From assembly GCF_030538595.1 (NCBI RefSeq), contig NZ_JAUNTS010000006.1, positions 114,929 through 178,928 on the forward strand: 64,000 nucleotides of DNA, given 5' to 3'. Source of the DNA: Kocuria sp. Its GTDB lineage: Bacteria; Actinomycetota; Actinomycetes; Actinomycetales; Micrococcaceae. The notes under the pieces are model-generated. The model was not told where the DNA came from and searched no databases. It saw only the letters and a list, made by a program, of their open reading frames with translations. The position numbers and the translations under genes were made by a program. Shown piece by piece: positions 38,019 to 56,449 of this stretch; the stretch's first letter is position 1, and each line of letters begins with the position of its first letter.

Positions 38019-38756
38019 CTACTTGACGCGGGGTAACGGAGCCCACGCCGGCAGGGCTGTCGCACGGCGGCGCCCTTGCACAAGGTCTTCCTGGGTGTCG
38101 ACCTCCCACCACTCCTCTGGCCCAACAGCCACCTGAAGCAGGAGAACACGCTTCGCGGCCTCGCTCATCGCGTAGGGATACCACAGATCTTCCCCACCAC
38201 AGACAAGCATGCTTCGCACCTCCTCGGCCAGCACTGCCGCATCGGCGGATCGCCAGATCGACATCCCGAGCCCCTCTCCGCTCGCCTCAGACACGGGAAT
38301 ATTCTTACTTAGTTTCACGACTCTTCCCTCCTCGACTTGCGCCCCCAGATCGAACGTGTCACTTCGAGAAGTATCGACTACGATGCCGCTACCTGGGGTG
38401 TCCCACAGTCGCCGGACCACGGCGGGGGATGTGAGCAGGTCGCTGTCGCTCACGAGGAAACCCTCGTCCCACCACGGAATGGTCAAGCTCAAGGAGTACA
38501 GGTTATTCGTAGTTTGATAGCACTCGTTCACGATGAACTCCACTGGATGACGCAGGTCGAGACCCTCTACATGACTCCGAACTGCCTTCTCAGCGTGACC
38601 AAGCACCACCACGATGCGCGTGATCTCCATCTCGTCGAGTCGACTGAGGACTGTTCCGATCAAGCTATGACCACCCAGCTCCAGTAAGGGCTTTGGCATA
38701 TCCAGGGCGGTCCCCAGCCGCCGACCCAACCCGGCCGCAGGCACAATCCCGATCAT
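38019..38756 (-). CDS. LicC/PntC-like phosphonate cytidylyltransferase
   Basis: 245-residue sugar-phosphate-type nucleotidyltransferase. N-terminal VPAAGLGRRLG and MPKPLLELGG bind NTP; FIVNECYQTTNNLYSL and LVSDSDLL match phosphocholine cytidylyltransferase LicC and its phosphonate relatives (PntC), which make CMP-phosphonates from CTP. In this operon the likely acceptor is the cluster's own phosphonate, giving a CMP-activated intermediate or handle. Last gene of the 15-gene operon; its start overlaps the stop of the Fe-type alcohol dehydrogenase (ATGA). Specificity is inferred from family and context. Confidence 0.82.
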   Translation of the reverse strand: MIGIVPAAGLGRRLGTALDMPKPLLELGGHSLIGTVLSRLDEMEITRIVVVLGHAEKAVRSHVEGLDLRHPVEFIVNECYQTTNNLYSLSLTIPWWDEGFLVSDSDLLTSPAVVRRLWDTPGSGIVVDTSRSDTFDLGAQVEEGRVVKLSKNIPVSEASGEGLGMSIWRSADAAVLAEEVRSMLVCGGEDLWYPYAMSEAAKRVLLLQVAVGPEEWWEVDTQEDLVQGRRRATALPAWAPLPRVK

Positions 38757-39892
38757 CGCGTGTCACCCGTCATCAGCGCGTTGTTTAGGACAACGTCCAA
38801 TCCCTTCGCATTCACGCCGGTGATCGGGTCATTGTCCAGGTTGCCCCCCAGGACGCCACGGGCGAGGTCTACATGCTCCTGCTCATAACCCATGACGGCG
38901 AGGGAAATGGGCAGGCCAAGCTGGCAAATCACGTCGCGGATGACATCCCGCAAGTCAGTTCCACCCAGGAGCGCTGCGATCTCGTTCATCGGCTCGGGCG
39001 GTAGGTCCATGTAAAGCTGATCGACCCATGCCGGATAGACCGCCGCCAAGCCACGCCCGTGGGTGCTGGGTACGCGCGGGTCCCCACCAAGTGCCTGCTG
39101 AATGCGGTGCGGGTAGCCGGTGCTGGCATTAGCGACGGTATACCCACCAAGGAGTGAGGCCGTGGCCTGTGCTTCCCATGCCTCGCGTGTGGCGCACCCC
39201 TCGGCGATGGCTGGGAGGGTACGACGGAGAATTTGCAGTGCCTCACGGCACCACATGCGGGAAATAACCGATGCGCGGCGCGCCATGAATCCCTCGATGG
39301 AGTGAGACAGCGCGTCAAAGCTCGTCTGCGCGGCAACATTCTGTGGCATCGTGGGCAGCCATATTGGGTCCACTACCGCCACACGTGGCAGCAAGCACCG
39401 TCCACGGATACCCGATTTCAGGCCTCGATCAGGGTCTGTGATGATGGCCCCTCGTGTCACCTCGGCACCACTACCCGCCGTCGTCGGAATCGCCACAACA
39501 TCGATGGCGCTCGTATTGTCCGGCAGGGTCATGCCCACCAGCTCTGCCGAAGAGTTGCGATGAACAGCGACACTGATCGCCTTGGCCGTGTCGATCGCAC
39601 TACCGCCACCCACAGCGATAATAAGGTTGATATCTGCACTGCGGGCCAACTCAACACCGCAGTCCACGTCTTGGGTTGTCGGCTCTGGACGCACGGAGTC
39701 GTGCAGGGTAATGGTGCAGCGCGCCTTATCAAGCTGTTCACGGACCGCATCGAGAGCACCCGATTCGCCCGCGCTGGCCGAACCGGAGACGAGCAGGCAA
39801 TTTTTACCGAACCCCTCGATCATAGTGGCGAGCTCCGTCGTTGCTTCCGCACCGAGCATGACCCGGGTGGGCGTGCAGATTTCCGCTGTCAC
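38753..39892 (-). CDS. Iron-type (group III) alcohol dehydrogenase, phosphonate aldehyde reductase candidate
   Basis: 379 residues. NAD-binding IIAVGGGSAIDTAKAI and the metal site region (TSFDALSHSIEGF, then VPSTHGRGLAAVYPAW) are intact. Enzymes of this family reduce phosphonoacetaldehyde to 2-hydroxyethylphosphonate in several phosphonate clusters. Here, with kinase-like and ArgC-like genes upstream and no phosphonopyruvate decarboxylase, the more likely substrate is phosphonolactaldehyde, giving 2,3-dihydroxypropylphosphonate. ATG 39892 overlaps the upstream stop. Confidence 0.85.
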   Translation of the reverse strand: MTAEICTPTRVMLGAEATTELATMIEGFGKNCLLVSGSASAGESGALDAVREQLDKARCTITLHDSVRPEPTTQDVDCGVELARSADINLIIAVGGGSAIDTAKAISVAVHRNSSAELVGMTLPDNTSAIDVVAIPTTAGSGAEVTRGAIITDPDRGLKSGIRGRCLLPRVAVVDPIWLPTMPQNVAAQTSFDALSHSIEGFMARRASVISRMWCREALQILRRTLPAIAEGCATREAWEAQATASLLGGYTVANASTGYPHRIQQALGGDPRVPSTHGRGLAAVYPAWVDQLYMDLPPEPMNEIAALLGGTDLRDVIRDVICQLGLPISLAVMGYEQEHVDLARGVLGGNLDNDPITGVNAKGLDVVLNNALMTGDTR

Positions 39893-41082
39893 AGACTTTC
39901 CCTTCTTCGATCTCGAACCCGTCTCAAGTCTTCGACAACAGGTGAGAATCCCTTGCTCAAGTACACCAGGGCCGCTCCACCACCGGCCGATGCAGTCCCC
40001 GTGACATCCAGCTCGGTACAGGTGTCACCGCCGAGAAAGACCGCCTTCTCCCCGAGGGGTTCCAGGAGCCGTCCTACCTCGCCAGCTGCCTCAGCATGAC
40101 CTTCACCTATGTGCCCAGGGGGCCCCGCCACCACTGCGCGCGGCGCCACCAGGAGAGCGTGGGCCACGCGCTGCATGTCACGTGTATCCCACCGCACGTC
40201 CACGACCGCCCATCCAGGCTTCGTGGGCGCTGTCACGGGGATCCACTGCAGCCGCCCCGTGGCGCTCTCCCGCTGGCACACCTCGGTGGGAAGCACGAGC
40301 CGATCCCCAAGGCTGCGCGTGGCCTTCAGAAAGCGGGTAGAGTCACCTGCCGAGAGGGTGGGCCGGGACGAGTTCCCGAGCTCGAGACCCCGAGCGCGCC
40401 GCAGGGAGTTGAGCACGCCCCCAGCCAACAGCACGCATGCGGTGCGATCCGCTAGGGCGCCCGTCACAGCCATGGCTTTCTCACGCTTCATCCCTCCTAG
40501 GACGAGCGCACCCAAGGAACCGTGCCGCAGCGGTTCAAGGGCAGCGACCTCCCGGGCCAAACCCCGACTCAACCATGTCGGCATGTGCTGGAGAATACCG
40601 GTATTCGAAGCGTTGCGACGGTGGCTCTTGGAAAACCCACCGATGATCGCGCGCGGCGCAAGCGTCGCGTACGCGCGGGCCAAGGCCTCGTCGCACCTCT
40701 CCTCTCCCGGATCGAGCCGTGTGTTGCGCAGCAGAGTGATTGTTCCGGGCCCAGCGCCAACGGACCGGATGTTCCTCCAAGGGTCAGAGTCGTAGCGCAC
40801 GGGCAAGCCCATTCGCTGCCACGCGCTGGCGATATGCTCCTGGTCCCCTGCCGTGCCATCTTTTGCCGAACCCTGGTGGTTGAGAACGATAACCTCAGCG
40901 CCCGCCTCCGCAAGCGCTGCGAGATCAGGGATTTCCTCCGTCAAGCGCTCGGGCGCCCCACCCCACGGGGGTACGTTGGCACCAGCAGAGTAGAGCCAAC
41001 GCTGTCCAACCTTGACGCGTGCGGGATCGAAGATGAGCTGGGCATACTGCGAATCGTGGTTGTCGGGCACTACTCTAGCCAT
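39889..41082 (-). CDS. Phosphoglycerate-kinase-like enzyme for a phosphonate carboxylate
   Basis: 397 residues that follow phosphoglycerate kinase throughout but are strongly diverged. N-terminal IPDLAALAEAGAEVIVLNHQGSAKDG, LLRNTRLDPGEERCDE, GALVLGGMKREKA and the C-terminal nucleotide loop FLGGDTCTELD...ASAGGGAALVYL align with PGK blocks. Phosphonolactate differs from 3-phosphoglycerate only by the bridging oxygen, so this enzyme is well suited to make phosphonolactoyl phosphate. It overlaps the ArgC-like gene by 13 bases, and the two should work together as kinase and reductase. Known precedent: the kinase of the valinophos pathway. Confidence 0.85.
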   Translation of the reverse strand: MARVVPDNHDSQYAQLIFDPARVKVGQRWLYSAGANVPPWGGAPERLTEEIPDLAALAEAGAEVIVLNHQGSAKDGTAGDQEHIASAWQRMGLPVRYDSDPWRNIRSVGAGPGTITLLRNTRLDPGEERCDEALARAYATLAPRAIIGGFSKSHRRNASNTGILQHMPTWLSRGLAREVAALEPLRHGSLGALVLGGMKREKAMAVTGALADRTACVLLAGGVLNSLRRARGLELGNSSRPTLSAGDSTRFLKATRSLGDRLVLPTEVCQRESATGRLQWIPVTAPTKPGWAVVDVRWDTRDMQRVAHALLVAPRAVVAGPPGHIGEGHAEAAGEVGRLLEPLGEKAVFLGGDTCTELDVTGTASAGGGAALVYLSKGFSPVVEDLRRVRDRRRESL

Positions 41083-42149
41083 TCCAACCCAGCGGATTCA
41101 GGGAGACCGAACGCGACATTCATGTTCTGGACCGCGCTACCGGCGGCCCCCTTACCGAGGTTGTCAGACACCGCGACCACCTTGATCGAGTGAGTTCGAG
41201 GGTCCACGTCTGCACCTATCTGGCAGTTGTTGGTCCCCGTCACAGACGAAACCCAGGGGTAGAGGGAGTAGTCCTTGTGGTTGAGTGCGCCCTGACGCTC
41301 GGGGGCGATGACTTGGACGAATCGCTCCCCTTCTCGGCCAGCCCCGTAGGCGTCGCAGAAGACATCCAGCAGGTCCGCACGCGAGGGAGATTCGCCGCCA
41401 GTGACCTCAATCGATGCTGTGAGGTGGATTCCGCGGGGAAAGTCCGCATGAGCGGTCGACATGTCCACCACCGTGTTGACACCACCCCAGATCCTCACGG
41501 CAGCCTCGATCTCGGGCGCATGTCGGTGCCCGTCCAGACCGTACGAGAGCAACGTGCCGCTCGCCACAGCTGCGCTCGTCTCGCGTCGAGGGCTACTTCC
41601 CGCACCTGTCATGCCGTTCACCGCATAGATGGTCACACGGCTGTCGGGCTTGAGCATCCCCGCACAGGCAAGCGGGATGAGCGCCAGCTCAGCTGTGACG
41701 GCGAAGCAGCCGGGGTTGGCAACCAGTCGTGCGCCGTAAAGTTCCTCGCGCGCCATCTCGGTCAGACCGTAACGTGCTGTAGCCAGGAGCGCAGGCGCCG
41801 GATGTCGAACACCGTGCCAGCGCTCCAGGTCTTCCGCGTTAGGGAAGCGGTGGTCCGCACTGAGATCGATCACGCAGCTGCCTGCGGTCGTGAGCTGCTC
41901 GCTGATCTGCATGGCCTCCCCGGTGGGGGTGCACATCAGTACGGCATCGAGGTCGTCGCGCTCCAGCACTTCGGACACGGGCTGCAGGAGAAGGCGGTCC
42001 GACAGGCGCCGGTGCAGGGTCGCGAGGTCGCCATCGGACCGAGCGAACGGAATCACGGTCCCGACGGCGGGGTGGCGCAGAAGCAGACGACACGCCTCAA
42101 CTCCGGCTGCCCCTGTGGCCCCCACGACTCCCACGGTCAAAGTTCTCAC
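41070..42149 (-). CDS. ArgC-like acyl-phosphate reductase
   Basis: 359 residues of the N-acetyl-gamma-glutamyl-phosphate reductase family. NADP loop VGVVGATGAAGVEACRLL, catalytic Cys in VANPGCFAVTAELAL, and His in LSYGLDGHRHAPEIE are present. With no other arginine gene around and a PGK-like kinase next door, it is expected to reduce an acyl phosphate of a phosphonate to the aldehyde. ATG 42149 overlaps the MDR dehydrogenase stop (ATGA). Primary arginine biosynthesis is the weaker alternative. Confidence 0.87.
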   Translation of the reverse strand: MRTLTVGVVGATGAAGVEACRLLLRHPAVGTVIPFARSDGDLATLHRRLSDRLLLQPVSEVLERDDLDAVLMCTPTGEAMQISEQLTTAGSCVIDLSADHRFPNAEDLERWHGVRHPAPALLATARYGLTEMAREELYGARLVANPGCFAVTAELALIPLACAGMLKPDSRVTIYAVNGMTGAGSSPRRETSAAVASGTLLSYGLDGHRHAPEIEAAVRIWGGVNTVVDMSTAHADFPRGIHLTASIEVTGGESPSRADLLDVFCDAYGAGREGERFVQVIAPERQGALNHKDYSLYPWVSSVTGTNNCQIGADVDPRTHSIKVVAVSDNLGKGAAGSAVQNMNVAFGLPESAGLEWLE

Positions 42150-43192
42150 TGCGGCACTTCCTTCTCCTCGATATCGAGAATGACCCGACCTGCGGGGCGG
42201 GACACCTTCGCGGTAAGCATCTCGAACGCTTGCGCTATCTCGCCGATGGGGCGGCGGTGGGCAATCATCCCCAAGGCGTCGAGACCACCCTCCAGTAACG
42301 CAACCACCTCATAGACGTCGCGGCGTGTGGCAAGATGCGAGGTGAAGAGCGTGAGCTCGTGGGCGACATAGGCATCGAGCGGGATGGGTACATCCTGCCC
42401 GGCATAACTCACGACGACAACGTGTCCGCCCGGGCGTGTCAGTTCCAGCGCCTCTCGTAGACACGAGGGATGGCTATTCGTTACCAGGGTGAGATCCGCC
42501 TGCACCTCGCCATACCGCGCCCGGTCCTCTGGATCTGAGGCACTGAGGAAGCACTCTGCCCCTAAATGCTCGGCGTAGTGCTCTTTCTCCTTTCCTAGGT
42601 CGGTAGCAGTGACATGCAGGGCCCCGGCCGCACGGGCGAGGACTAGGGCGGCCGAACCTATACCCCCTACGCCGACCACAGCTACACGCGGTCGCCCCAG
42701 CGACGTGCGACGCCACGCATGCCAAGCAATCGAGAGAGGTTCGACGAGGACCCCCTGGAGTCGGGGCAACTGTGCCGAGAGGCGCACAATCATCGGTTCC
42801 CGTAAAGTCACATGGCGCGCGAATGTGCCTGCCCATCCCTCATGTGAGAGGTTAGTTCGTCGCTCACACAGGTTGATCAGCCCGACCCGGCACTGACGGC
42901 ATACCTCGCAGGGGCAGAAGGCGGAAGTCGCAACCAGGTCCCCTGGAAAGACAGATGTCACGGCAGCACCGACTCCGACCACCGTGCCGCACATTTCATG
43001 GCCGAGCACTACCGGAGGCCTTTTATAAGGGTGCCGACCGAGGAAGGCTCCAATATCGGAGCCGCATATCCCCGTGTGGTGCACCTGAACCAGGACTTCG
43101 TCTCCTGTAGGAGGCCGTAACTCCACGAGTCGCCGTTCAAAAGTGCTCTGCAGGGTGAGCTCGTAAACCCACGACTCAGGCATGGTTACCAT
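42146..43192 (-). CDS. Zinc-dependent medium-chain alcohol dehydrogenase
   Basis: 348-residue MDR enzyme. Catalytic zinc residues lie in HHTGICGSDIG and VVLGHEMCG; a structural zinc lobe is seen in CPCEVCRQCRVGLINLCE; the Rossmann loop is VAVVGVGGIGSAAL. It oxidises or reduces a polyol or aldehyde. In this operon it is the second candidate, beside the Fe-type enzyme, for the phosphonolactaldehyde step, or it could oxidise a hydroxyl of the product. ATG 43192 follows AGGGGAG and overlaps the upstream gene by 17 bases. Confidence 0.85.
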   Translation of the reverse strand: MVTMPESWVYELTLQSTFERRLVELRPPTGDEVLVQVHHTGICGSDIGAFLGRHPYKRPPVVLGHEMCGTVVGVGAAVTSVFPGDLVATSAFCPCEVCRQCRVGLINLCERRTNLSHEGWAGTFARHVTLREPMIVRLSAQLPRLQGVLVEPLSIAWHAWRRTSLGRPRVAVVGVGGIGSAALVLARAAGALHVTATDLGKEKEHYAEHLGAECFLSASDPEDRARYGEVQADLTLVTNSHPSCLREALELTRPGGHVVVVSYAGQDVPIPLDAYVAHELTLFTSHLATRRDVYEVVALLEGGLDALGMIAHRRPIGEIAQAFEMLTAKVSRPAGRVILDIEEKEVPQ

Positions 43193-44135
43193 GGGCAACT
43201 CTCCCCTCACACTCGAGTCGACGAATCCGACTAACAACCTCGCGTGCGATCCTCTCTTGGGCCTCGTCTGTAGACCCGCCGAGATGAGGGGTGAGCACGG
43301 CACGCTCATGCTGGGCTAGGACGGGAATCCCCGATTCTTCGGCATGGACGTCTACGGCGACGCCTGCGAGGCGTCCAGAGTTCAACCCCGCGAGAAGCGC
43401 GTGATGATTTACCACACCGGCTCGGCTCACGTCGACCACCATGCATCCCTGACGCACCCGTTCGAGCAGGGCGGCGTCGATCAGATTGCGCGTCTCCGGA
43501 GCGCCTGGGACCTGGACGGAGATGGCGTCGGAGCGCTCAATCAGCTCTTCCAACGGGCACAGCTCAATACCCCGGGCGGCGAGTTCCGTACGCCGGGCGG
43601 GATCCTGGCGAGCCACGCTGGCCAGAGTGTGCATTCCGAATCCCTGCGCGAGTTCGGCCACGCGGGAGCCGATCTTGCCGCACCCGACGATTCCCAGGGT
43701 CCGTCCACCGAGTTCCGTACCGCAGAGGAGCGCTTTATTCCACTGCCCCTCCCGCACCTGCCGATCAGCCTCCACGATGTGCCGACTCAACCCCAGCAGG
43801 TGGCCGATCACGAACTCGGCCACGGCGTTCACTCCGGGGCTGGGAATCGAGGAGAGCTCCACACCGTCGGCCTCGGCGCGGGTCACATCGATGTTGTCTA
43901 ACCCATTGCCAGCGCGGATCACGGCGCGCAGGTGGTTAGCGACATCGAACGCCTCTGCGTCGACCTTCACGCTACTGCGGCACACGAGCACATCAGTGTC
44001 CGCGAGCTGCCCCAGGAACTGGGCACGGGTCGGCCGGTTCACCACGGCGAGTTCGGTGAAGCTCGAAAGCTCCTTGATGCCGGTCTGGTGCATTGGGTCA
44101 GTGACGAGAACCTTCAGCACAACGCGGCGATTCAT
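43176..44135 (-). CDS. D-2-hydroxyacid dehydrogenase, candidate phosphonopyruvate reductase
   Basis: 319 residues of the phosphoglycerate-dehydrogenase family without the C-terminal ACT regulatory domain. NAD loop GGRTLGIVGCGKIGSRVAEL and catalytic Arg (VVDVSRAGVVN), Glu (AVDVHAEES) and His (LTPHLGGSTDEAQ) are present. Phosphonopyruvate resembles 3-phosphohydroxypyruvate, the natural SerA substrate, so reduction to phosphonolactate is the expected reaction and would pull the unfavourable PEP mutase equilibrium forward. Start 44135 overlaps the flavoprotein stop. Confidence 0.85.
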   Translation of the reverse strand: MNRRVVLKVLVTDPMHQTGIKELSSFTELAVVNRPTRAQFLGQLADTDVLVCRSSVKVDAEAFDVANHLRAVIRAGNGLDNIDVTRAEADGVELSSIPSPGVNAVAEFVIGHLLGLSRHIVEADRQVREGQWNKALLCGTELGGRTLGIVGCGKIGSRVAELAQGFGMHTLASVARQDPARRTELAARGIELCPLEELIERSDAISVQVPGAPETRNLIDAALLERVRQGCMVVDVSRAGVVNHHALLAGLNSGRLAGVAVDVHAEESGIPVLAQHERAVLTPHLGGSTDEAQERIAREVVSRIRRLECEGRVAHGNHA

Positions 44136-44761
44136 GGCTCTAGGCGGCATGCGTCCCACGCTCCATTCGCCCCCCGACGATAGCAGAGGCGACGGTGGAG
44201 CCGGTTGGCGCTCCCGTGCCAGAACTCGACCTCATCAGGGATCACGTGCCAGGCGTGCCATTCGTCGGGCCGCTGGAGTTCACCGCTCTCTTCGATGATC
44301 TTAGCGCGCTCCCGCAAGGTATCCTCGTCCTGGAGCGGGCGGCTCTGGTGTGAGGCGATCACGGCGGCGCGGGCCGCCGCCGGTCGAGCGTCAAACCGCG
44401 CGTCGGACTCCTCAACCGTCGCCTTCACGGCCCGGCCCTTAACGGAAATTTGCTGCATAGTCTCGCGCCAATAGAAGGTCAGTGCGCAGCGGGGATCTGT
44501 CTCGAGCTCACAACCCTTGCGGCTCGCCGCGCTGGTCGTGAAGACAAGACGAGTATCGTCCACATCCTTGATCAAGACGGTTCGAGTGGAGGGCCCTTCC
44601 TGCCCCGCCGTCGCGAGCGTGGCGGCAGCGAGTTCGCGGACCCCGACGGCCTGAGCGCGGTCCATCCACTCCCGAACGATCGGGAGGGGCGCTGACGGAG
44701 GGATGTCGAACTCGGGAAGATCAAGCTGGATGTCCCCAGACAGGGTTTGTGGAGAGGTCAT
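44132..44761 (-). CDS. Pyridoxamine-5'-phosphate-oxidase-like flavoprotein
   Basis: 209 residues of the PNPOx/PhzG split-barrel FMN family. Family marks: STRTVLIKDVDDTRLVFTTSAASRKGCELE for FMN binding, LTFYWRETMQQISVKGRAVK, ASHQSRPLQDEDTLRER, and a C-terminal VIPDEVEFWHGSANRLHRRLCYRR, close to PdxH. It may supply PLP for the operon's aminotransferase or oxidise an intermediate, as PhzG does in phenazine clusters. The context cannot decide. It overlaps both neighbours by four bases. Confidence 0.82.
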   Translation of the reverse strand: MTSPQTLSGDIQLDLPEFDIPPSAPLPIVREWMDRAQAVGVRELAAATLATAGQEGPSTRTVLIKDVDDTRLVFTTSAASRKGCELETDPRCALTFYWRETMQQISVKGRAVKATVEESDARFDARPAAARAAVIASHQSRPLQDEDTLRERAKIIEESGELQRPDEWHAWHVIPDEVEFWHGSANRLHRRLCYRRGANGAWDACRLEP

Positions 44762-46023
44762 GGGAGTCCCTTCTGCTCTTGCTGGTCATTGATCAAAATC
44801 CGAGCGGGGTCGAGTAGGTCGTCGAGGAGGTGGGAGAGCGCAGCATCGTCGGCCGCGCGCACGATGGCATACGCGACTCGGTCTGCGGACGACTCCGCCG
44901 GTTGCACCTGATGCCCGGGAGGGAAACGCTCCCCCCAACGCACGACCCCCGCGGACGTACGCAGTTCACCCCACTCGATTCCCTGCAGGGCACCCCGGCG
45001 GTGGGCCACAAGAAAGCACGTGCCGTACCGGCCGCCGACCTGGTCCGGCCTACGGACATGGGGGAACCTTTCCAGACTCGGGGTCTCGATCCCGAGTGCG
45101 GCCTGGATATGCGCCGCGTAAAGGTCCCTGTCATAGGCTCGGGAAATAGCCTCCATGAGATGGTCACCAGGCATGCGCACCATGGTTTCCATCACCACGA
45201 CACGCTCGCCGCTCTCCCGGAATTCCATGCTCATCATGGCGTCACGCACCCCCAGGTGGGACAGCACCTGGCGTAGAGCCCCACAAGCGACTTCGGCCAA
45301 CGCTGGGTCGACCACCTCGAACCCCACGCGGTGCGCCACCTCCACGAAGTGCTTCTGGTCCTGAGTGGTCTTGTGCGTCAAATTGGTCAGCACGGGCTCG
45401 CCCGCCACCACAAGTGCCTCGACGCTGTACTCCTGACCCTCGACGTACGTCTCGCACAGCACGGGCCCCTCGACGCCTCTGCGCGCCACGACGTCCTCAA
45501 TGTCGCTCGGTGCCACCACGCGCTCGACCCCGTGGCTACCCATCCCGTCAAGCGGTTTGACCACTGCCGGCAGGTGCTCCTGCAACCAAGGCGCAGCGTC
45601 CGTTATTGAGGAAGCCAGTAGGTGCTCTGGTTGATCCACTATCCCGTCCAGCTGCGCGCGCTGGAGCGCCTTATTCCGGCTCGTTAGCGCTGCCCGCATG
45701 CCCGGTCCCGGGATTCCGTAGGTGTCCTGTACCAGGGCCGCCGCCAACACATGGGGTTCCGAAAAGGCGAGACAACCCCAGCGCTCACCACCAGCCGCAA
45801 GCCTGGCGGCGAGGGCCAACGCGGGGCGCACCCAACCGGTCTCGTGACCAGCTTCCCCGTCTGGGAGCACCTCTTGGTCGATGAGTGGATAGCGCTCGGC
45901 GAGGGTCGCGAGGCGTCCCGCAGTGTCCACCACCGCGATCTGCAGCCCGTTACGCCGGGCAGCGTCGAGGTAGGGCTCGGCCATCACGCCAGCGCCGACG
46001 AGTAGAATAGTGGGGGGAACCAT
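44758..46023 (-). CDS. ATP-grasp ligase C
   Basis: About 421 residues. ATP-grasp marks: PAVVKPLDGMGSHGV (ATP lid), CETYVEGQEYSVEALV, and VVVMETMVRMPGDH. In the last block the usual Glu-x-Asn-x-Arg reads E-T-M-V-R, so the metal-binding Asn is replaced, as in some amino acid ligases of this fold. Known phosphonopeptide clusters use such enzymes to add amino acids to phosphonates by amide or ester bonds. Start is uncertain: GGAGG precedes ATGATG, and 46023 gives the better spacing. Confidence 0.82.
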   Translation of the reverse strand: MVPPTILLVGAGVMAEPYLDAARRNGLQIAVVDTAGRLATLAERYPLIDQEVLPDGEAGHETGWVRPALALAARLAAGGERWGCLAFSEPHVLAAALVQDTYGIPGPGMRAALTSRNKALQRAQLDGIVDQPEHLLASSITDAAPWLQEHLPAVVKPLDGMGSHGVERVVAPSDIEDVVARRGVEGPVLCETYVEGQEYSVEALVVAGEPVLTNLTHKTTQDQKHFVEVAHRVGFEVVDPALAEVACGALRQVLSHLGVRDAMMSMEFRESGERVVVMETMVRMPGDHLMEAISRAYDRDLYAAHIQAALGIETPSLERFPHVRRPDQVGGRYGTCFLVAHRRGALQGIEWGELRTSAGVVRWGERFPPGHQVQPAESSADRVAYAIVRAADDAALSHLLDDLLDPARILINDQQEQKGLP

Positions 46024-47243: not shown

Positions 47244-47884
47244 GCCATGACCCACTGAAGGACGTGCGCCGCTGCGATGGCACACGCGACGCACGCCAGC
47301 AGGGCCATCCACACCCCGCGAGGCTTGGGTACCCGCAGCATAGACACGTTGGCCGCCGCGGTAAGAATCATGAGACCGCCTACCACGTAGTGGGCTAAGC
47401 CGTCCTGGCGGACCCACGGCACGAGAAGTAGGCCTGCAACCAAGAGTTGGTTAGCGACCACCGGCACACCGATGAAAGAGTGGCCGTCCAAGCCCACCAC
47501 GGTGAAGTACGCCAACCGGCAGGCCAGCGCGCAGGTAAAGATCACCGCCACGACAACGGAGAAGACTGACCCCCCGCCCAGAAGCACGAAGCAGGCGCCC
47601 CCAAGTAAACCTCCTGCCGCTAGGTCCACGAGCGAGTCGAGCACCCCGCCGATTCGGGACTTCAGCTCTGATCGCTTCGACATCGCCCGAGCCAAGAAAC
47701 CATCACCGATATCACACACGGTGGAGCCCATAATACCAAGGGCACCCTGATGCAGATTGCCCTCGAGCACGCCAGCCAGTCCCCACACGGTGAAGACCAG
47801 TCCGGCCAATGTGCAGAGGTTGGCGGGGTCAACGAACTGCGCCAGAATCTGCGGTGATCGCTGCGGAACTACATGAGTCTTCAT
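47240..47884 (-). CDS. CDP-alcohol phosphotransferase family membrane protein
   Basis: 214 residues with about six membrane spans. The signature appears as CDIGDGFLARA, then GGVLDSLVDL: Asp-x2-Asp-Gly-x2-Ala-Arg, twelve residues, Gly-x3-Asp-x3-Asp. Twelve rather than eight intervening residues match a PssA-like branch. Enzymes of this family move a CMP-bound phosphate head group to an alcohol, or use CDP-diacylglycerol. Its co-occurrence with a LicC/PntC-like cytidylyltransferase suggests transfer of the phosphonate from its CMP ester to a lipid or other alcohol. ATG 47884 shares a base with the upstream TAA. Confidence 0.85.
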   Translation of the reverse strand: MKTHVVPQRSPQILAQFVDPANLCTLAGLVFTVWGLAGVLEGNLHQGALGIMGSTVCDIGDGFLARAMSKRSELKSRIGGVLDSLVDLAAGGLLGGACFVLLGGGSVFSVVVAVIFTCALACRLAYFTVVGLDGHSFIGVPVVANQLLVAGLLLVPWVRQDGLAHYVVGGLMILTAAANVSMLRVPKPRGVWMALLACVACAIAAAHVLQWVMA

Positions 47885-49095
47885 TATTCCACTCTCACCT
47901 TTGCCCGGATGTCCTCTGCCACAGCCTCGGCAACCGAGCTCGCTTCCTGACAACTGTCGCCGTGCGTGACAACGAGCGCCATACCATCGATGGAGGACCC
48001 AGGCGATATCAGCGTGTCGCCCACTTCCACGCGTAGCTCGATGGAGTCCAGCCCGTCTCGGCTGGAAAACAGCGTGGGATCAATCTCGAGGACACGCCCC
48101 GGGCGGGGAGGCACAAGACAGTATGCGTGCGGGCGGAAGGGCGCGTCGGGGAGTCCCCCCAGGGACATTCCGACGCCGAACGCCTCCCGTACGTACCATT
48201 CGACGGGATCGGTTCCAAAGCCGCGCGACACAAGCTCACGCACCTTCGCGCCTCCGATCCGGGCGCCAATCTCGTTCAAAAGATAGTGACCATCAGGCGA
48301 CCTGAAGGCCTCGGCGTGGAAGATCATGCGGTCGTGTGATGGGAGGGCGGCAACCGTATCACGGACAAGTCCTTGGAGGACGGGCACCCGCTCATCGTCG
48401 GTGTCGAGCTGGCTGGCGATCAGCAACTGGCCGGACTCGAAGCCCAAACACGACGACGTTCCGGAAGGCCAGCAGATGTGCATCGCGCCGTTCATCGAAA
48501 TACCGTCAATATTGAACATCTCGTTATCGATGAACTCTTCGGCCAAAAGGTAGGCGGGATCGTCACCCTTCAGAGCCCCAACGCTCCTGCAGTACTCCTC
48601 CAGGTCCGTTCCCGTCCTCAGCACTGTGACCCCGATTGAGGAGGCCCCGAGCCGGGGCTTGACAACCACCGGGCCTTGGATGTCTCGCCAGAACGCAAGC
48701 AACTCCGTGAACTCGTTCACGGGTGCGAACCGCGCGACGGGAATGCCCGCGTCGTGCAGGACCTCCTTCATTAGCAGCTTGTCGCGGTAAGGTAATGTCT
48801 GTGCCAAGGTGGGGCCAGTCATATCGTTCGCATCGCGCAGCCGCGCGGCCCGCAGGAGGTCGAACTCAGAGAGGGCCACTAAGGCATTACAGCCATGCTG
48901 GTGAATGAGGCGCTCCAGGATCAGACACGTCCTCGCCGACATGTAGTCATCCACCACCGCGACGTCCCGGTATGCAGACAGATCTAAAGGGTGTGACAAG
49001 GCGTCACGAGACGTCACCATGACGACGTCATCATCGACCCACGTGGGGTAGTCCACCAGCGCAAGGGGGAATCGGTTGAGGACAGCTGTTGTCAT
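47884..49095 (-). CDS. ATP-grasp ligase B
   Basis: 403 residues. RDKLLMKEVLHDAGIPVARF leads into PVVVKPRLGASSIGVTVL, then LAEEFIDNEMFNIDGIS and YLLNEIGARIGGAKVREL. The EIGAR form of the metal motif is typical of a subfamily of carboxylate-amine ligases. Expected to activate a carboxylate as acyl phosphate and join it to an amine or hydroxyl. Start 49095 overlaps the stop of ligase A; the two may act in sequence on the same product. Confidence 0.83.
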   Translation of the reverse strand: MTTAVLNRFPLALVDYPTWVDDDVVMVTSRDALSHPLDLSAYRDVAVVDDYMSARTCLILERLIHQHGCNALVALSEFDLLRAARLRDANDMTGPTLAQTLPYRDKLLMKEVLHDAGIPVARFAPVNEFTELLAFWRDIQGPVVVKPRLGASSIGVTVLRTGTDLEEYCRSVGALKGDDPAYLLAEEFIDNEMFNIDGISMNGAMHICWPSGTSSCLGFESGQLLIASQLDTDDERVPVLQGLVRDTVAALPSHDRMIFHAEAFRSPDGHYLLNEIGARIGGAKVRELVSRGFGTDPVEWYVREAFGVGMSLGGLPDAPFRPHAYCLVPPRPGRVLEIDPTLFSSRDGLDSIELRVEVGDTLISPGSSIDGMALVVTHGDSCQEASSVAEAVAEDIRAKVRVE

Positions 49096-50351
49096 TGCCC
49101 GTCTCCTTCAGCAGCGGTCCACGAAAGGTCCAGCAACCCCAGGGCCTCTTGCGCACGAAGCCGGGCCTCGGTTGCGTCCTCTCCTGTGGCGATGCACCAG
49201 GCGACGCGATCCTGGTTGGAATCGTTGAGTCGGTGCTCCTGCCCCTGTGCGATCCGCACGTGTACCTCGCGGACTCCCGGAACGGCGTGCGCCCGGTCCT
49301 CTCCTCCGACGCGATCGAGGCGACCTCCCGGCCCTTGACGGAAGCAGATCATCGCAGTGCGCGCCCCACAACACGGTGCGCGGTCAACTTCCCGCCCGAG
49401 GGCGGCGCAGATCTGTTCTTGCACTAGATCACGCCCCGTCACCAGCCGAACGAGCTCGGGGATGCGGTCCCCGGCCACCCGGGCATTGACCTCGATGACG
49501 ACGATACGGCCTGAGTCCTCTCGACGCACCTCCACATGCGCCGGACCCCATCCGAGGCCGATCATCTTGCAGGTCGCTTCTGCAGCGGAAGCCAATGCCG
49601 CGTGGATGCCGTCGTGGATCGGTGCCGGCACTGTGTGGGCAATCTCAATGACGGTGCCTGCGGCCAACTCCTTGCCCGTGACCGCCACGGCTTGGCCATG
49701 CATCAGCTCGACCGAGTACTCCCGGCCCTCTATGAACTCCTCGACCACGACCTCAGGTGTGACAGGAACTCCGAGATAGGACTCCTGGTGGAGGACAGCA
49801 GCGGCAGCTTCAGCCGCTTCCTCGGGGGTTTCGCACCGGCGGACAAGCACGCTACCGGTGAGATTGGTCGGCTTGACGACGACCGGCCTCCCCATGTCTC
49901 GGGCAGTCTGGGCGGCTTCTTCGGGTGTTCCGCATCTCGCGTATCGGAGGGACAGGTTGGTACATCTCAGGGTGTCCCGTTGATCCGCCTTGTTGCGGCA
50001 CACCCTGACCGCCTCCGGGTTAGGACCGGGGAGGCCCAGCTCGTCAGCGAGCTCCGCAGCCTGCGCCGCGTAGTACTCGTAGAAGCTGAGCACTGCGGCT
50101 GGCTCGCCGTCGACTTCGGTGCAGATCGTTGCGCGCATGGCCGCCACACTCTGCGTGTCCGTGCGCACGACGCGAACGTCGTGTTTGTCAAGCTGATCAC
50201 GCAGATACTCAGGCATCGCGTCAGGGTTATGGGCGAGCAACAGGGTACGGAACCCCAAATGGTCCAGGAAGCGTGCCGCATCCGCGCCCGCCCCGGTCAC
50301 GGGGGACTCAACCATAATGGCGACTGCGCCGGACAGGCGGCCCCCATTCAT
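49092..50351 (-). CDS. ATP-grasp ligase A
   Basis: 419 residues. CRNKADQRDTLRCTNLSLRYAR, PVVVKPTNLTGSVLV, VVEEFIEGREYSVELM and a complete Glu-x-Asn-x-Arg motif (VIEVNARVAGDRIPEL) make this the most canonical ligase of the three. In clusters for amino acid conjugates of phosphonates, one ligase couples the first amino acid and another extends it. Start 50351 overlaps the FAD protein stop (ATGA). Confidence 0.85.
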   Translation of the reverse strand: MNGGRLSGAVAIMVESPVTGAGADAARFLDHLGFRTLLLAHNPDAMPEYLRDQLDKHDVRVVRTDTQSVAAMRATICTEVDGEPAAVLSFYEYYAAQAAELADELGLPGPNPEAVRVCRNKADQRDTLRCTNLSLRYARCGTPEEAAQTARDMGRPVVVKPTNLTGSVLVRRCETPEEAAEAAAAVLHQESYLGVPVTPEVVVEEFIEGREYSVELMHGQAVAVTGKELAAGTVIEIAHTVPAPIHDGIHAALASAAEATCKMIGLGWGPAHVEVRREDSGRIVVIEVNARVAGDRIPELVRLVTGRDLVQEQICAALGREVDRAPCCGARTAMICFRQGPGGRLDRVGGEDRAHAVPGVREVHVRIAQGQEHRLNDSNQDRVAWCIATGEDATEARLRAQEALGLLDLSWTAAEGDGQ

Positions 50352-52543
50352 CGGGGAACCGCCGTGTCTGAGGCAGTGAGGAGGCCCTCGGCGTCCAGCT
50401 TGGCCACCCAGGTGAGGATGTCCTGCATCACGTGGTGGTTCTGCTCGGGCCGTAGCGCGCCGAGCTGGAAAAACACCACTCCCTCGCTAGGCGGCCCGAG
50501 CACGGTAATTCGGGAGTCGACCTTGCCCGAGGCCCCACGTGGGCTGAATGACTCGTCAAGGTCAAGGCCGCCGGGGACAAAGATTTCGGATAGCCCTTCC
50601 CCACCGACGTTCTCCCAGAGGCGGACCACGCCCCTATTCAACAGGTTACGGTACAGCACCGCAGTGTCCAGACGCGGATCGAAGGCATGGACAGTGGCGT
50701 CCACGAGCACTCCGGCGTGTCCTTCGTACCCCGTGAGCGGGCCGCTAATCATGTACCCCTTGTCGTCGAGCCGAACGCTCCCTCCTGGGCCGACCCCCAC
50801 ATCCAGGAGGCCGCATTCCGCGACCGCGCGAATCTTTGCCATGACCTCACGAGCGGCACCATTGGCGAGTCGGTTGTGATGGCGCATGTAGACCTCAAGG
50901 AAGCGCCGATGGGAACTAGGGGTGAGACCGCCTCGGTCTACCGCGTGCGCCAGAACGTCGCGCAGATCTCGCCACACCCCGTCGGCCGCTGCTTTAGCCG
51001 GATGGGCTAGGTTACCGCGCGCGGCAGCTGTGTCATCCTGTCCGAAGAATTCGAGCATGGCAGCGCGGTAGCGCTCGGGTGTATCGCAGGCGCTGCCTGG
51101 GATCGGCCGGATGGTGCGGTCCCAGTCGAAGGGACTCTCTAAGGCCCGGGGCGCCAGGCCGAACGGGGACTCGGACGTTAGGTAGCGGCGGGGTTGCTCT
51201 GCCGCTACGACGGTGCCCACGGGAGCACGAGCTGCCTTGCCCCATACGCAATGCACGAAGGATGCGGCGGCGAGGCCGAAATCCCACCCGTTCGCCTGCA
51301 CGCGGCATTCTTCCAGGGATATGGTGCCGTCCAGGCGCTGGTCAATCAGTGCAGCGATACGGGCGATCTCTTCTTGGAGTTGCTTCTGGGCAATCTCGGC
51401 GCTCGCCGGTGCCTGGGCGATCGAGGCGCTGAGGAACGCCGACACCGACTCCTCAACGGTTTGCCGTAAATAGCCCCTCGTGTCCCCCCCGAACAGTGTG
51501 GTTGCGTGTAGCAACGCCATCTCCAGAAGAACCAACGGAAAAATGTCTCGCTCAAAATCGACCTGTGTGCCTTCACGCCCGGGCTCCCCGCGGTGTGCAC
51601 GGATGATGTCCACTGCTTGCTTTGTGAGGAACACACCTCGGTGCTCGTAAAGCGCGAGGTCAACCTGTTTATGATTGTCGGGTCGCGCAAAAGTAAATAA
51701 CCCTGAGCCTGAGAAGGGAATGATTCGGGACGGTTCATCTCCCGATGGGACGTACTTCACCTCGGAACCCTCCGTGATGAAGGTCCCGCCCCTACCTTCC
51801 GTGAGATACAGGACTATATCGATGGCTGTCAGGCCCATACCTTCGCATGCCACAACGCTCCCCGCAGGCGCAGCTTCCACGGTGAGCCCACGTTCCAGTG
51901 GATAGGCGCTCCCGATGTATTCGACGCCTGCTCGCTTCGCATGCTCAGCCTTGCCGTGACGACGCTTGTCGAGTTGGGGGTCGTTCCACGAGTGCCCCGT
52001 GACTAAGAGGACCTGATCGACGTCTCCCACCGAGGAACTATCGCCACACAGCAACTCAATCCGCGCGCTGGAAGTGTCGATGTCCACCACTTCCAGGGGA
52101 TGCAAAACGACCTTCACGCCTGCCTTCCGCAGGAGACCCACATACGCATAGAAGTGATGCCGCAAAGCTTCCCCATGCACATACCGTTTCGGCCAATCCG
52201 CGGCCCCAACGGAATAGCGCTGATCATGAGTCTCTGCGTATCTTTGCCCGCACCACTGCGCGAGGTTTAGTCGGTACTCGGGTTCCAGTAGGGGATTTGC
52301 CCCCTTGATCGTCTCGTCGGCGGCGAAAGATACCTGCCCGGCAATACGATTAAGGAAACTTACCTGGGACTGTCGCGCACTGTGGACTTCGCCGTCGCCG
52401 AAGTTTCCACCCTTATCGAAGACATGAATCAGCAGCGGCTTGGTCAACCGGCCCGCAGACGCCAGGGCCGCCAACCGTTCCATCGAATAGACGGCACTTG
52501 GACCAGCCCCCACAATGGCAAGGACATAGTGAGACTCACTCAT
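50348..52543 (-). CDS. FAD/NAD(P)-binding protein (NAD_binding_9 type)
   Basis: About 731 residues. An N-terminal Rossmann motif LAIVGAGPSAVYSMERLAAL and VSFLNRIAGQVSFA, a middle LLVTGHSWNDPQLDKRR and VVACEGMGLTAIDIVLYLTEG, match the large FAD-NAD(P)-binding family related to COG4529. A long C-terminal half has no motif I know. Members are suspected monooxygenases or oxidases, mostly uncharacterised. It might hydroxylate or oxidise the amino acid or phosphonate part. A GTG at 52552 has a better-spaced AGGAGG and is a possible start. It overlaps the aminotransferase gene. Confidence 0.78.
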   Translation of the reverse strand: MSESHYVLAIVGAGPSAVYSMERLAALASAGRLTKPLLIHVFDKGGNFGDGEVHSARQSQVSFLNRIAGQVSFAADETIKGANPLLEPEYRLNLAQWCGQRYAETHDQRYSVGAADWPKRYVHGEALRHHFYAYVGLLRKAGVKVVLHPLEVVDIDTSSARIELLCGDSSSVGDVDQVLLVTGHSWNDPQLDKRRHGKAEHAKRAGVEYIGSAYPLERGLTVEAAPAGSVVACEGMGLTAIDIVLYLTEGRGGTFITEGSEVKYVPSGDEPSRIIPFSGSGLFTFARPDNHKQVDLALYEHRGVFLTKQAVDIIRAHRGEPGREGTQVDFERDIFPLVLLEMALLHATTLFGGDTRGYLRQTVEESVSAFLSASIAQAPASAEIAQKQLQEEIARIAALIDQRLDGTISLEECRVQANGWDFGLAAASFVHCVWGKAARAPVGTVVAAEQPRRYLTSESPFGLAPRALESPFDWDRTIRPIPGSACDTPERYRAAMLEFFGQDDTAAARGNLAHPAKAAADGVWRDLRDVLAHAVDRGGLTPSSHRRFLEVYMRHHNRLANGAAREVMAKIRAVAECGLLDVGVGPGGSVRLDDKGYMISGPLTGYEGHAGVLVDATVHAFDPRLDTAVLYRNLLNRGVVRLWENVGGEGLSEIFVPGGLDLDESFSPRGASGKVDSRITVLGPPSEGVVFFQLGALRPEQNHHVMQDILTWVAKLDAEGLLTASDTAVPR

Positions 52544-53645
52544 TGCTTGCACTGGTCGCACCTCCTTGTGGAACCAGCACAGCTGTCATGGCGTGAAGCA
52601 ATCCCTCAACGTGACTCTCTTTGAGCTGCCCCATCGTCGCAATACGAACGACATTGCCCATCCGGGGCGGACAATGGTAAATAATGTAACCGCGGTCCCG
52701 CATCTGGTCGTGGAACGCTGAAAACGGCATGGACTCCGGCAAATGGAACACGCTCGTGCAACACGACAAATCACCGTCGCTCACGAATGACTTCATGCCC
52801 AATTCCTGCATCCGCTCGCGGATCCGAGCGGTGCTACGGCTGTAGCGCTCGCGTCTCCCGATAACACCCTCAGCGAGGAGGACATCGAGCGCACATTCCC
52901 ACGCGGCGAGCACTTGCACCGCGGGAGTGAAAGCGGGCTCTTGCCGACCCACCTGCGCGGAAAAATTGGCGTGCAAGTCCAGATAGAGCCCCGCGTTGCT
53001 GCCCTCGGCCGACTCGAGGAGCGCGGTCTTCGCGCACACGAAGCTCATGCCCGGCAAGCCCTCAAGGCACTTATTCGAAGAACCGACCAGCCAGTCGACA
53101 CCCATCGCGCGAACGTCGATCTCCTCCGCGCCCACGCTGCTCACAGCGTCGACGATGACATCACACCCGTACCGGTGGGCGATAGCCGCGACCTCGGCAA
53201 GTGGATTCAGCATGCTCGTGCTTGTCTCATGGTGCACCATCAACACGTGGCTGAACGTACGAGCCTTCAGCACACGCTCGATCTCAATAAGATCAAAGGT
53301 CTGGCCCCAACCCATGCGGAGCCACTCATGATCGATAGCGCGCGAGGCCACGATCTGCCGCAGACGCTCTCCATAATTGCCGTTGTCCAGAACGAGTGCC
53401 GTTCCTAAGGGGGGCACAGCTGTAGCGATAGCCGCCTCAAGGGCGCATGTTCCAGAGCCGGTAAGTAGGATCGCGTCGTGCGTCCCGTCCCCGTTGCAGA
53501 TCTCCACCAGCTTCTCCCTCACCCTGGTCAAGCGGGAGAGGGTCTCCATCTCCCGATGACAGAGATCTCCGGTATTGAGTGCTTCCCACACAGAAGGGTG
53601 AACCCGAACGGGCCCCGGGTTGAAGAGAAGAGCAGAGTCGTTCAT
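52536..53645 (-). CDS. PhnW-like class V aminotransferase
   Basis: 369-residue PLP enzyme close to 2-aminoethylphosphonate:pyruvate aminotransferase. LFNPGPVRVHPSVWEAL, LCHREMETLSRL, ILLTGSGTCALEAAI and the PLP lysine in VGSSNKCLEGLPGMSFV are the PhnW blocks. With PEP mutase next door and no decarboxylase, the substrate could be phosphonopyruvate (giving phosphonoalanine) or phosphonolactaldehyde (giving 3-amino-2-hydroxypropylphosphonate), rather than phosphonoacetaldehyde. ATG 53645 overlaps the pepM stop (ATGA). Confidence 0.85.
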   Translation of the reverse strand: MNDSALLFNPGPVRVHPSVWEALNTGDLCHREMETLSRLTRVREKLVEICNGDGTHDAILLTGSGTCALEAAIATAVPPLGTALVLDNGNYGERLRQIVASRAIDHEWLRMGWGQTFDLIEIERVLKARTFSHVLMVHHETSTSMLNPLAEVAAIAHRYGCDVIVDAVSSVGAEEIDVRAMGVDWLVGSSNKCLEGLPGMSFVCAKTALLESAEGSNAGLYLDLHANFSAQVGRQEPAFTPAVQVLAAWECALDVLLAEGVIGRRERYSRSTARIRERMQELGMKSFVSDGDLSCCTSVFHLPESMPFSAFHDQMRDRGYIIYHCPPRMGNVVRIATMGQLKESHVEGLLHAMTAVLVPQGGATSASNE

Positions 53646-54583
53646 GCGGAGGTCCTGTTGTTGGTGGGCACTGACCTTTCGACAGAGCCTTCCATGCACG
53701 ACTCGACGAACCCCACAAGCCGTCGTTCCGCCTCGTCCATCTCGGGGTAAGCGTAGTGCTCGAAAATCTCCTGCACCTGGATCATTTCCGGGAGACTAAC
53801 CAAGCTGCGATTCTTGCTGAGGTGACAGGCAACCTTTTCCATCGCCTTGTAGGCAGCCCGCAATGACTGATTGGCCCAGATCACCATGGAGACCCCGAGT
53901 TCCTCGAAGGCCTGGGGATCAAGATCACGTCCGTAAGTTGTCGGCGCAATGACGAGTGGAGCGCAACGATCCCACCGACGACAAAACTCGGCAATCTCGT
54001 TAACTTCCTCTTGCCGAGAATGAATGAACAGCGCGTTCGCGCCAGCGGCAATGTAGGCACGGCCACGCTCAAGGGCTTCATCCACACCCGCACCCGCGAT
54101 GAGGCTCTCCGTACGAGCTACAATCATAAAGTCGTCTTCCACCACCTCCCGGGCGGCGGCAATCTTAACCATGAACTCTCGCGTCTCGATGAGATCTGGG
54201 GCGTCACCGTAGAACGAGTTCATCTTAGGGAACTGCTTGTCCTCGTAACACACACCTTGCGCGCCGGACTCCTGCGCGTGCCGGGCAAAAACCCGCGCTG
54301 AATTGTAATTTCCGTGCCCGCTATCACCGTCCACAAGGATTGGCAGGTTCGTACACAGGCTAATGGAACGCACCCTGTCGAGCATGTTGCTCCAGGAAAT
54401 CTCGTTGGAATCACGCACACCGCACGACGTCGAGATACAGAGCCCTGAAGCCCACAAAACTGGGAAACCTGCGCCCTCGGCGATCCGCGCGGACATCCCG
54501 TCATGGGCTTCCATAGCATAGGTAACATCAGGTTCCTTCAAGAGCCCCTCAAGGCTCATCCTGGTCGCTTCATATCGCGGCAT
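53642..54583 (-). CDS. pepM: Phosphoenolpyruvate phosphomutase
   Basis: 313-residue isocitrate-lyase-superfamily enzyme that rearranges PEP to phosphonopyruvate, the entry step of nearly all phosphonate biosynthesis. The diagnostic motif EDK-x5-NS is intact (YEDKQFPKMNSF), with SISLCTNLPILVDGDSGHGN for Mg binding and ARTESLIAGAG. The motif separates it from isocitrate lyase and methylisocitrate lyase relatives. ATG 54583 follows CGGAGA; a longer in-frame reading lacks a site. First gene of the operon, so its promoter should drive the whole cluster. Confidence 0.96.
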   Translation of the reverse strand: MPRYEATRMSLEGLLKEPDVTYAMEAHDGMSARIAEGAGFPVLWASGLCISTSCGVRDSNEISWSNMLDRVRSISLCTNLPILVDGDSGHGNYNSARVFARHAQESGAQGVCYEDKQFPKMNSFYGDAPDLIETREFMVKIAAAREVVEDDFMIVARTESLIAGAGVDEALERGRAYIAAGANALFIHSRQEEVNEIAEFCRRWDRCAPLVIAPTTYGRDLDPQAFEELGVSMVIWANQSLRAAYKAMEKVACHLSKNRSLVSLPEMIQVQEIFEHYAYPEMDEAERRLVGFVESCMEGSVERSVPTNNRTSA

Positions 54584-56444: not shown

Positions 56445-56449
56445 TCTAG
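55336..56449 (+). pseudogene. IS481-family transposase with one frameshift
   Basis: GTG 55336 (AAGGAG upstream) reads 32 sensible codons (RLQMVQRHLRDGSP), then leaves frame at a run of five C (55429-55433) and would stop at once. One frame over, the protein continues IAHVASEFRVSWETVSKWV (helix-turn-helix) and the DDE integrase core: HLDVKKLGKIP, RVITDNGNNYRS, HNGKVERYNRLM. Four C instead of five would restore it, so this is a one-base slip or an error. The stop codon TAG falls five bases beyond the right end and uses the target duplication. Confidence 0.8.

Follow-up and report, generated by a model that had tools for sequence, protein, structure and literature searches.

A 64,000-nucleotide stretch of Kocuria sp. 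DNA (assembly GCF_030538595.1, contig NZ_JAUNTS010000006.1, positions 114,929 to 178,928; hereafter the window, within which all coordinates are given) carries an operon of fifteen minus-strand genes, running from 54583 to 38019, in which the biosynthetic cassette of a phosphonothrixin producer stands together with a transaminase/N-oxygenase pair of the PcxL type. In other genomes examined the two modules were seen apart, and here they are joined; the literature matches listed include no description of the gene combination, with the proviso that key phosphonate papers may mention such clusters. A first-pass annotation, made from the sequence, had picked out this operon and assigned it a valinophos-like core that makes 2,3-dihydroxypropylphosphonate (DHPPA). 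The operon is real and its gene content and coordinates hold. The interpretation was right in its core and incomplete: it missed the aminotransferase/N-oxygenase pair, which defines what is new, and it omitted or merely hinted at the PhzG-like, ATP-grasp (three), CDP-alcohol, major facilitator superfamily (MFS) and PntC-like genes. We think the chances about even that the product is what the encoded protein sequences would predict, a three-carbon phosphonate derived from 2-amino-3-hydroxypropylphosphonate that is N-oxygenated and conjugated to amino acids.

All 14 junctions between the genes overlap, by 1–19 bases with the start codons as chosen here, and further genomes carry this set of genes too; the arrangement is thus not a product of chance. 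The first gene, pepM (53642..54583), is preceded by a Shine-Dalgarno-like GGAG and encodes a phosphoenolpyruvate (PEP) mutase (Pfam PEP_mutase, 190 bits; best PDB match 1m1b, a PEP mutase; TIGR02320 at 290.5 bits, under the cut-off of 319.55). Its sequence EDKQFPKMNS keeps intact, as the first-pass annotation had said, the EDK-x5-NS motif by which PEP mutases are defined in the accessible part of PMC6697681. A phosphonopyruvate decarboxylase is absent from the fifteen genes, again as had been claimed, and the best candidate anywhere in the genome, at 43 bits, stays under the cut-off; 2-aminoethylphosphonate (AEP) would therefore not be made by that route.

The five-gene block and a proposed route to a ketone

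The block comprises genes for a SerA-like dehydrogenase (43176..44150, 327 amino acids; 2-Hacid_dh domains and no ACT domain in the Pfam listing), a zinc alcohol dehydrogenase (42146..43192; ADH_N and ADH_zinc_N), an ArgC-like reductase (41070..42149; TIGR01850 at 279.9 bits, over its cut-off, and an NPGC motif), a PGK-like kinase (39889..41082; Pfam PGK, 107.9 bits) and an iron alcohol dehydrogenase (38753..39892; Fe-ADH, 159 bits), all of them found as previously described. By homology, PepM would make phosphonopyruvate and the SerA-like enzyme would reduce it to phosphonolactate; the kinase is predicted to act on phosphonolactate and the ArgC-like reductase on the acyl-phosphate, together giving phosphonolactaldehyde, which the iron dehydrogenase would reduce to DHPPA. 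The first-pass annotation ended the route there. A dedicated PepM pathway with such a core is supported, and we amend its end: the zinc dehydrogenase would oxidise C2 of DHPPA to yield 3-hydroxy-2-oxopropylphosphonate, as in the phosphonothrixin route.

The kinase appears not to belong to primary metabolism. Where true PGK, by alignment with 1v6s, has an Asp that is a substrate-site residue of the PGK signature, 9 of 9 members of the kinase family examined have Gly34 (the G1636 kinase, whose match was split, is excluded from the count). A scan of named genomes with the kinase gave five loci, S. durhamensis not among them; all five genomes have a PepM match, each with EDK-x5-NS. In four of these loci some 11 kb at most separate PepM and the kinase. 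In L056 PepM is on the kinase's contig about 26 kb off, with a SerA match between the two, and the stretches examined there did not show the other genes of the block. A first scan of genome contigs with the kinase alone gave no match, a phylum search with a kinase alignment gave one match besides the source genome (G140, 124 bits), and none of the 32 plasmid records found with the kinase query covered 80% of it (12 of the 20 listed are annotated as phosphoglycerate kinase). The source genome has a second PGK-type match, on contig C1. A figure of three kinase relatives in 5.8 billion proteins was rejected as a count, as 7998 candidates were scored and relatives found later are unlisted in it.

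The order SerA-ZnADH-ArgC-PGK-FeADH, with the zinc dehydrogenase in the same slot, is found in all nine loci that have this dehydrogenase: the window, L052, L053, L054, G1672, G1636, G1673, G1682 and G1747 (L052 and L053 should not be counted as two independent cases). In L052 and L053 PepM lies upstream of the block, and L053 is Streptomyces sp. WM4235, which is named as a phosphonothrixin producer in the accessible part of PMC12723261; the phosphonothrixin (ftx) cluster thus has the window's gene order. The two differ in that a three-domain thiamine pyrophosphate (TPP)-enzyme gene, labelled acetolactate-synthase-type here, occurs in L052 and L053 and a transketolase-type gene in L052, whereas neither is among the window's fifteen genes, and in that the window has the transaminase/N-oxygenase pair. 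TPP-dependent ketotransferase and acetolactate-synthase-like genes are features of the phosphonothrixin pathway. One open frame of L052 (5399-7894) contains Pfam AMP-binding and a SerA-like domain, and a similar long open frame in L053 (5180-7885) spans the SerA match.

With valinophos (vlp), compared at the level of the pathway, the window shares the phosphonolactate, kinase/reductase and DHPPA logic and the ATP-grasp ligases. The valinophos-type gene set is present in one cluster (PepM, reductase, kinase, ArgC-like reductase and alcohol dehydrogenase), and the window has in addition the zinc dehydrogenase, transaminase, N-oxygenase and PhzG genes. The valinophos paper (JACS 2022) reportedly covers the steps to DHPPA, and the phosphonothrixin paper (J Bacteriol 2023) is said to have DHPPA oxidised to 3-hydroxy-2-oxopropylphosphonate. 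Locus L055 (the same as L041, Streptomyces sp. WAC 01529), valinophos-type by our own label, has PepM with matches to SerA (41%), ArgC (47%), PGK (34%) and FeADH (38%) and no zinc dehydrogenase. Since the phosphonothrixin-type loci have the latter enzyme and the valinophos-type locus lacks it, we infer that it is the oxidant of DHPPA. The DHPPA-type core proposed earlier is supported, but its closest match is the phosphonothrixin-producer cassette; because the zinc dehydrogenase and the gene order agree with that cassette, the core probably continues past DHPPA, and the block likely ends at 3-hydroxy-2-oxopropylphosphonate.

The transaminase/N-oxygenase pair

Between pepM and the remaining genes lie a class V aminotransferase gene (52536..53645), whose product resembles the AEP transaminase PhnW (TIGR03301 at 328 bits, under the cut-off of 360.8; best PDB match 1m32, an AEP transaminase), and a gene (50348..52543) for a 737-amino-acid FAD/NAD(P) protein (NAD_binding_9), an N-oxygenase of the type of PcxL, FzmM and CreE. 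The carbonyl of 3-hydroxy-2-oxopropylphosphonate is beta to phosphorus, with the O=C-C-P spacing of phosphonoacetaldehyde, the substrate of AEP transaminase, so the transaminase-like enzyme would be expected to aminate this ketone to 2-amino-3-hydroxypropylphosphonate, which is AEP with a CH2OH group. Oxidation of this amine by the flavoenzyme would follow, with a ketoxime as the probable and a nitro compound as a possible product. On chemical reasoning, a route through the ketone would account for both dehydrogenases and for the changed N-oxygenase pocket described below. A single solved protein matches the N-oxygenase at E 0.001, the aspartate N-hydroxylase 8cp2/8cp5 (E 2e-37); in the accessible text of PMC10404684 this enzyme is grouped with FzmM, CreE and PcxL, and PcxL is described as converting AEP to 2-hydroxyiminoethylphosphonate.

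The N-oxygenase is 42–50% identical to homologues in PepM clusters, and the closest named protein among the homologues listed is from Micrococcus sp. FDAARGOS_333 (67%). With the phosphonocystoximate and hydroxynitrilaphos systems (PcxL, HpxL) the window would share an N-oxygenase that is probably of the PcxL type, beside a PhnW-like transaminase as in L047 and L065 (=G1322), to which we gave the label Pcx/Hpx kind. These two loci and L045, all from the genus Streptomyces, have PepM, decarboxylase, transaminase and N-oxygenase, the last about 6 kb further along in L045; the decarboxylases of L065 and L045 are 70–71% identical to that of L047, and the transaminases and N-oxygenases of the three loci are 41–45% and 42–46% identical to the window's. 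The window differs from them in having no decarboxylase: there, and in six clusters of the Saccharothrix family, the five-gene block takes its place beside the pair. The transaminases of the two kinds have eight fixed differences (7 block-linked against 3 decarboxylase-linked sequences).

The substrate pocket has changed as well. In a pairwise alignment on 8cp2, which has gaps near Arg276, the window's protein retains Asn62, Arg266, Arg409, Arg412 and Arg577 (its own Asn71, Arg293, Arg531, Arg534 and Arg704), Arg/Asn residues shared with the aspartate N-hydroxylases FzmM and CreE, to which it is homologous; the aspartate-binding Arg13, Arg276, Asn413 and Arg416 are replaced, by Ser22, Glu306, Asp535 and Ala538. 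The Arg13 position is Arg in L047 and G1322 but Ser or Thr in 7 of 7 block-linked proteins (the third decarboxylase-linked protein, L045, is unreadable there because its match was split). An alignment of 131 sequences, 11 from the loci together with the window and 120 listed of 193 homologues, has 29 Arg and 10 gaps at this position; nine PEP mutase fusions are among the gaps, having been cut before alignment. The Arg form is a single clade in a FastTree phylogeny (28 of 28 without the Pantoea outgroup, support 0.997), and the window's protein lies outside this clade, to which the decarboxylase-linked homologues belong. The altered residues would fit a changed substrate.

A transaminase/N-oxygenase fusion was considered for L054, G1672, G1636 and G1673, where open frames are long, and was rejected: in each of the four the transaminase and N-oxygenase genes occupy different frames, and in the long frame of L054 Pfam finds the N-oxygenase domain only. 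The genes are adjacent, not fused. Precomputed Pfam domains give at least nine PEP mutase/N-oxygenase fusions among the 120 listed of 193 homologues (P0022, P0025, P0027, P0033, P0037, P0038, P0045, P0049 and P0051; 982–1118 amino acids, two of them named as Solirubrobacterales proteins). On a Streptomyces cadmiisoli plasmid (L069:11986-14250) a PcxL-type N-oxygenase homologue is found near an annotated thymidylate kinase and an MFS transporter, with no PepM match within 12 kb of it. A distant homologue (35%) on a Pantoea agglomerans plasmid (L070:6682-18094) stands by genes for a putative PEP-binding protein, an alkaline phosphatase family protein and an aminotransferase, and this may be a phosphonate-type cluster that has yet to be described.

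Distribution of the cluster and its accessory genes

PepM is rare among the relatives of the source organism. At E 1e-50 the 27 genomes of the genus gave no match outside its own genome and the 297 of the order gave two, own included; for the N-oxygenase at E 1e-80, the family (245 genomes) gave the source genome alone and the class (394 genomes) gave two, own included. The genus that includes Streptomyces sp. WAC 01529 has a PepM match (E 1e-50) in 19 of 392 genomes, and 20 stretches were examined there (19 of the 22 listed matches, with G684, G475 and G701 left out, and the one of G848). The Saccharothrix family has the N-oxygenase (E 1e-80) in 6 of 190 genomes, including L054 (Saccharothrix sp. 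NRRL B-16314), and all six have PepM, transaminase, N-oxygenase, PhzG-like enzyme, SerA, ZnADH, ArgC, PGK and FeADH within about 40 kb (about 21 kb for L054); no decarboxylase match in these stretches exceeds 40 bits. The PepM of all seven clusters with this nine-gene core, the window's included, has EDK-x5-NS. The recurrence of nine genes in seven genomes suggests a family of clusters that share a distinct product.

The PhzG/PdxH-like FMN oxidase (44132..44761; NF038138 PhzG at 229 bits, cut-off 270), a likely extra oxidant, is matched in 7 of 7 block-bearing N-oxygenase clusters, and the three decarboxylase clusters have no match to it even at E 1. The other genes of the operon are more variably shared. 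Three ATP-grasp amino-acid ligases, predicted to attach amino acids, are encoded at 49092..50351 and 44758..46023 (ligases 1 and 3, each ATP-grasp_4 and LAL_C2) and at 47884..49095 (ligase 2; LAL_C2 over and ATP-grasp under the cut-off, 40% in L042 and 46% in G1747); ligase matches occur in 3 of the 7 clusters, namely the window, G1682 (ligases 1 and 3 clearly shared, 42% each) and G1747, which has all fifteen window genes at 31–48% identity. The operon is completed by an MFS protein (46023..47243; MFS_1, 88 bits), which would export the product, and by a CDP-alcohol phosphatidyltransferase (47240..47884; PF01066, 32 bits) and a PntC-like NTP_transf_3 nucleotidyltransferase (38019..38756; PF12804, 49 bits; best PDB match 6pd1, a nucleotidyl transferase/aminotransferase fusion, 37 bits), which may activate or transfer the phosphonate. 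Tailoring varies among the relatives: nonribosomal peptide synthetase-type domains occur in G1672 and G1673, an NTP_transf_5 protein is encoded in L054, G1636 and G1682, and the last of these also has genes of the AMP-binding, OCD and PALP families. The genus to which Streptomyces sp. WAC 01529 belongs has a PepM cluster, L042 (G447:C285:2000-21900), that lacks the block but has counterparts of the window's ligases 1 and 2, MFS, CDP-alcohol and NTP genes, along with genes resembling those for AurF, aldehyde dehydrogenase and asparagine synthase.

An IS481-family transposase gene (55247-56449) closely precedes the operon, compatible with recent gain; its DNA is about 72–73% identical to copies on Rhodococcus, Prescottella and Actinomyces plasmids, over at most 41% of the query. 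G+C content is similar in the operon (62.7%) and in the rest of the window (61.5%). Scans of the whole window found no tRNA and no Rfam match at the gathering score, and between 37500 and 55300 there were 4 promoter-like sites (3.3 in shuffles) and 6 terminator-like sites (9.9 in shuffles), neither above expectation.

Alternative products and a linked enolase

Several points weigh against a product built on 2-amino-3-hydroxypropylphosphonate. AEP transaminases act on an aldehyde, and a ketone substrate is an extension of that activity; 3-hydroxy-2-oxopropylphosphonate is reportedly an intermediate of the phosphonothrixin route, and the zinc dehydrogenase is a putative source of it; the roles given to the PhzG-like, PntC-like and CDP-alcohol enzymes are guesses, and the last two are matched in only 1 of 6 relatives (about 21 kb examined for L054). 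Every step of the pathway is drawn from homology. In addition, the seven block-linked N-oxygenases are not one clade in the tree, and Ser/Thr at the Arg13 position is also found in the Streptomyces cadmiisoli plasmid protein, so that it denotes a type that is not decarboxylase-linked and is no mark of this pathway alone.

The transaminase might instead act on phosphonolactaldehyde to give 3-amino-2-hydroxypropylphosphonate, to be N-hydroxylated and acylated in the manner of fosmidomycin and FR-33289. An aldehyde is the usual kind of AEP-transaminase substrate, and FR-33289 has the same carbon skeleton, but the zinc dehydrogenase, conserved in 7 of 7 clusters, would then be without a role and the amine would be gamma to phosphorus, unlike that of the AEP handled by PcxL; we consider this unlikely. 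FR-900098, FR-33289 and fosmidomycin are N-oxidised three-carbon phosphonates too, and CMP-bound N-hydroxy-3-aminopropylphosphonate belongs to the FR-900098 route. That compound appears in a figure legend of PMC13302981, FR-33289 is named in the accessible part of PMC12288639, and the FR-900098 route passes through 2-phosphonomethylmalate according to the accessible part of PMC12871164, in which it differs from the window.

Three further readings seem to us less probable still, and about equally so. The product could stop at DHPPA, joined to amino acids as in valinophos, with the other genes as minor decorations; the PepM, SerA, PGK, ArgC and FeADH genes are present as in L055 and so are ATP-grasp genes, yet it is the transaminase, N-oxygenase, PhzG and ZnADH genes that are kept in all seven clusters, against ligase matches in three. 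The product could be a surface or lipid phosphonate, the PntC-like enzyme making a CMP-phosphonate for transfer to lipid or glycan by the CDP-alcohol enzyme. That pair occurs in the window, G1747 and L042, but only one of the six relatives has matches to it, and with an exporter and amino-acid ligases in the operon one would expect a product that is small and diffusible. Lastly, two branches could leave phosphonopyruvate, the transaminase making phosphonoalanine and the block DHPPA, with the ligases joining both. Phosphonoalanine does resemble aspartate, the substrate of the N-oxygenase's solved homologue, but it is precisely the four aspartate-binding residues that are not kept, and the known phosphonopyruvate transaminase PnaA is of the aspartate-aminotransferase superfamily (accessible part of PMC11867202), whereas the window's enzyme is PhnW-like. 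That these are ordinary primary-metabolism genes adjacent by accident, as the family-level names SerA, PGK and ArgC might suggest, has a negligible probability and is contradicted by the PepM linkage, the gene order fixed across genomes and the Gly of the kinases.

Returning to 2-amino-3-hydroxypropylphosphonate, three rounds of N-oxygenation would convert it to (3-hydroxy-2-nitropropyl)phosphonate, which Anderson, Weiss and Cleland reportedly described in 1984 as a tight enolase inhibitor, designed as a reaction-intermediate analogue (their paper is cited in PMC5193436); the term nitropropyl was not found among the literature matches listed. A natural phosphonate inhibitor of enolase, SF2312, is described in the accessible parts of PMC6863902 and PMC13302981. 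Prompted by the idea of a nitro product, we searched for enolases in seven genomes. Umezawaea tangerina (G1673) has a second, full-length enolase gene that immediately precedes the PhzG gene of the cluster and shares its strand, with 88 bp between the frames; AAA-ATPase and methyltransferase genes lie beyond it, so it may mark the cluster's edge. This enolase groups with the second enolases of G1672 and G1092 (81–85% identity, against 57–60% to the other seven), neither of which lies by the cluster of its genome. By a rough estimate (10 enolases, about 10 slots per cluster, about 6500 genes), one such neighbour would arise by chance in about 1–2% of cases. In the 20 kb around it no other gene matches the flanks in G1672 or G1092; between these two, a pair of genes is shared (51% and 31% identity), though spaced differently.

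Weighing against the link, six of the seven clusters have no linked enolase, and the enolase type is common in the family. Three of the seven genomes have two enolases and the source genome has one, unlinked; two enolases per genome were rejected as a signature of the cluster, the type being common in Amycolatopsis, Saccharothrix and Actinosynnema (at least 80% identity, among 120 listed of 7984). We treat the linked enolase as a lead. That the family makes (3-hydroxy-2-nitropropyl)phosphonate, or an oxime on the way to it, as an amino-acid-conjugated natural enolase blocker, with the second enolase of Umezawaea tangerina as a resistant target, is a tentative and rather improbable proposal.

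The joining of the two modules gives a precise and testable prediction of the product, one version of which points to enolase. Its product, as predicted from the sequence, would be a natural phosphonate of a new kind and perhaps a blocker of the glycolytic enzyme enolase; if that is true, nature would have an antibiotic warhead identical to the enolase inhibitor that chemists designed in 1984.

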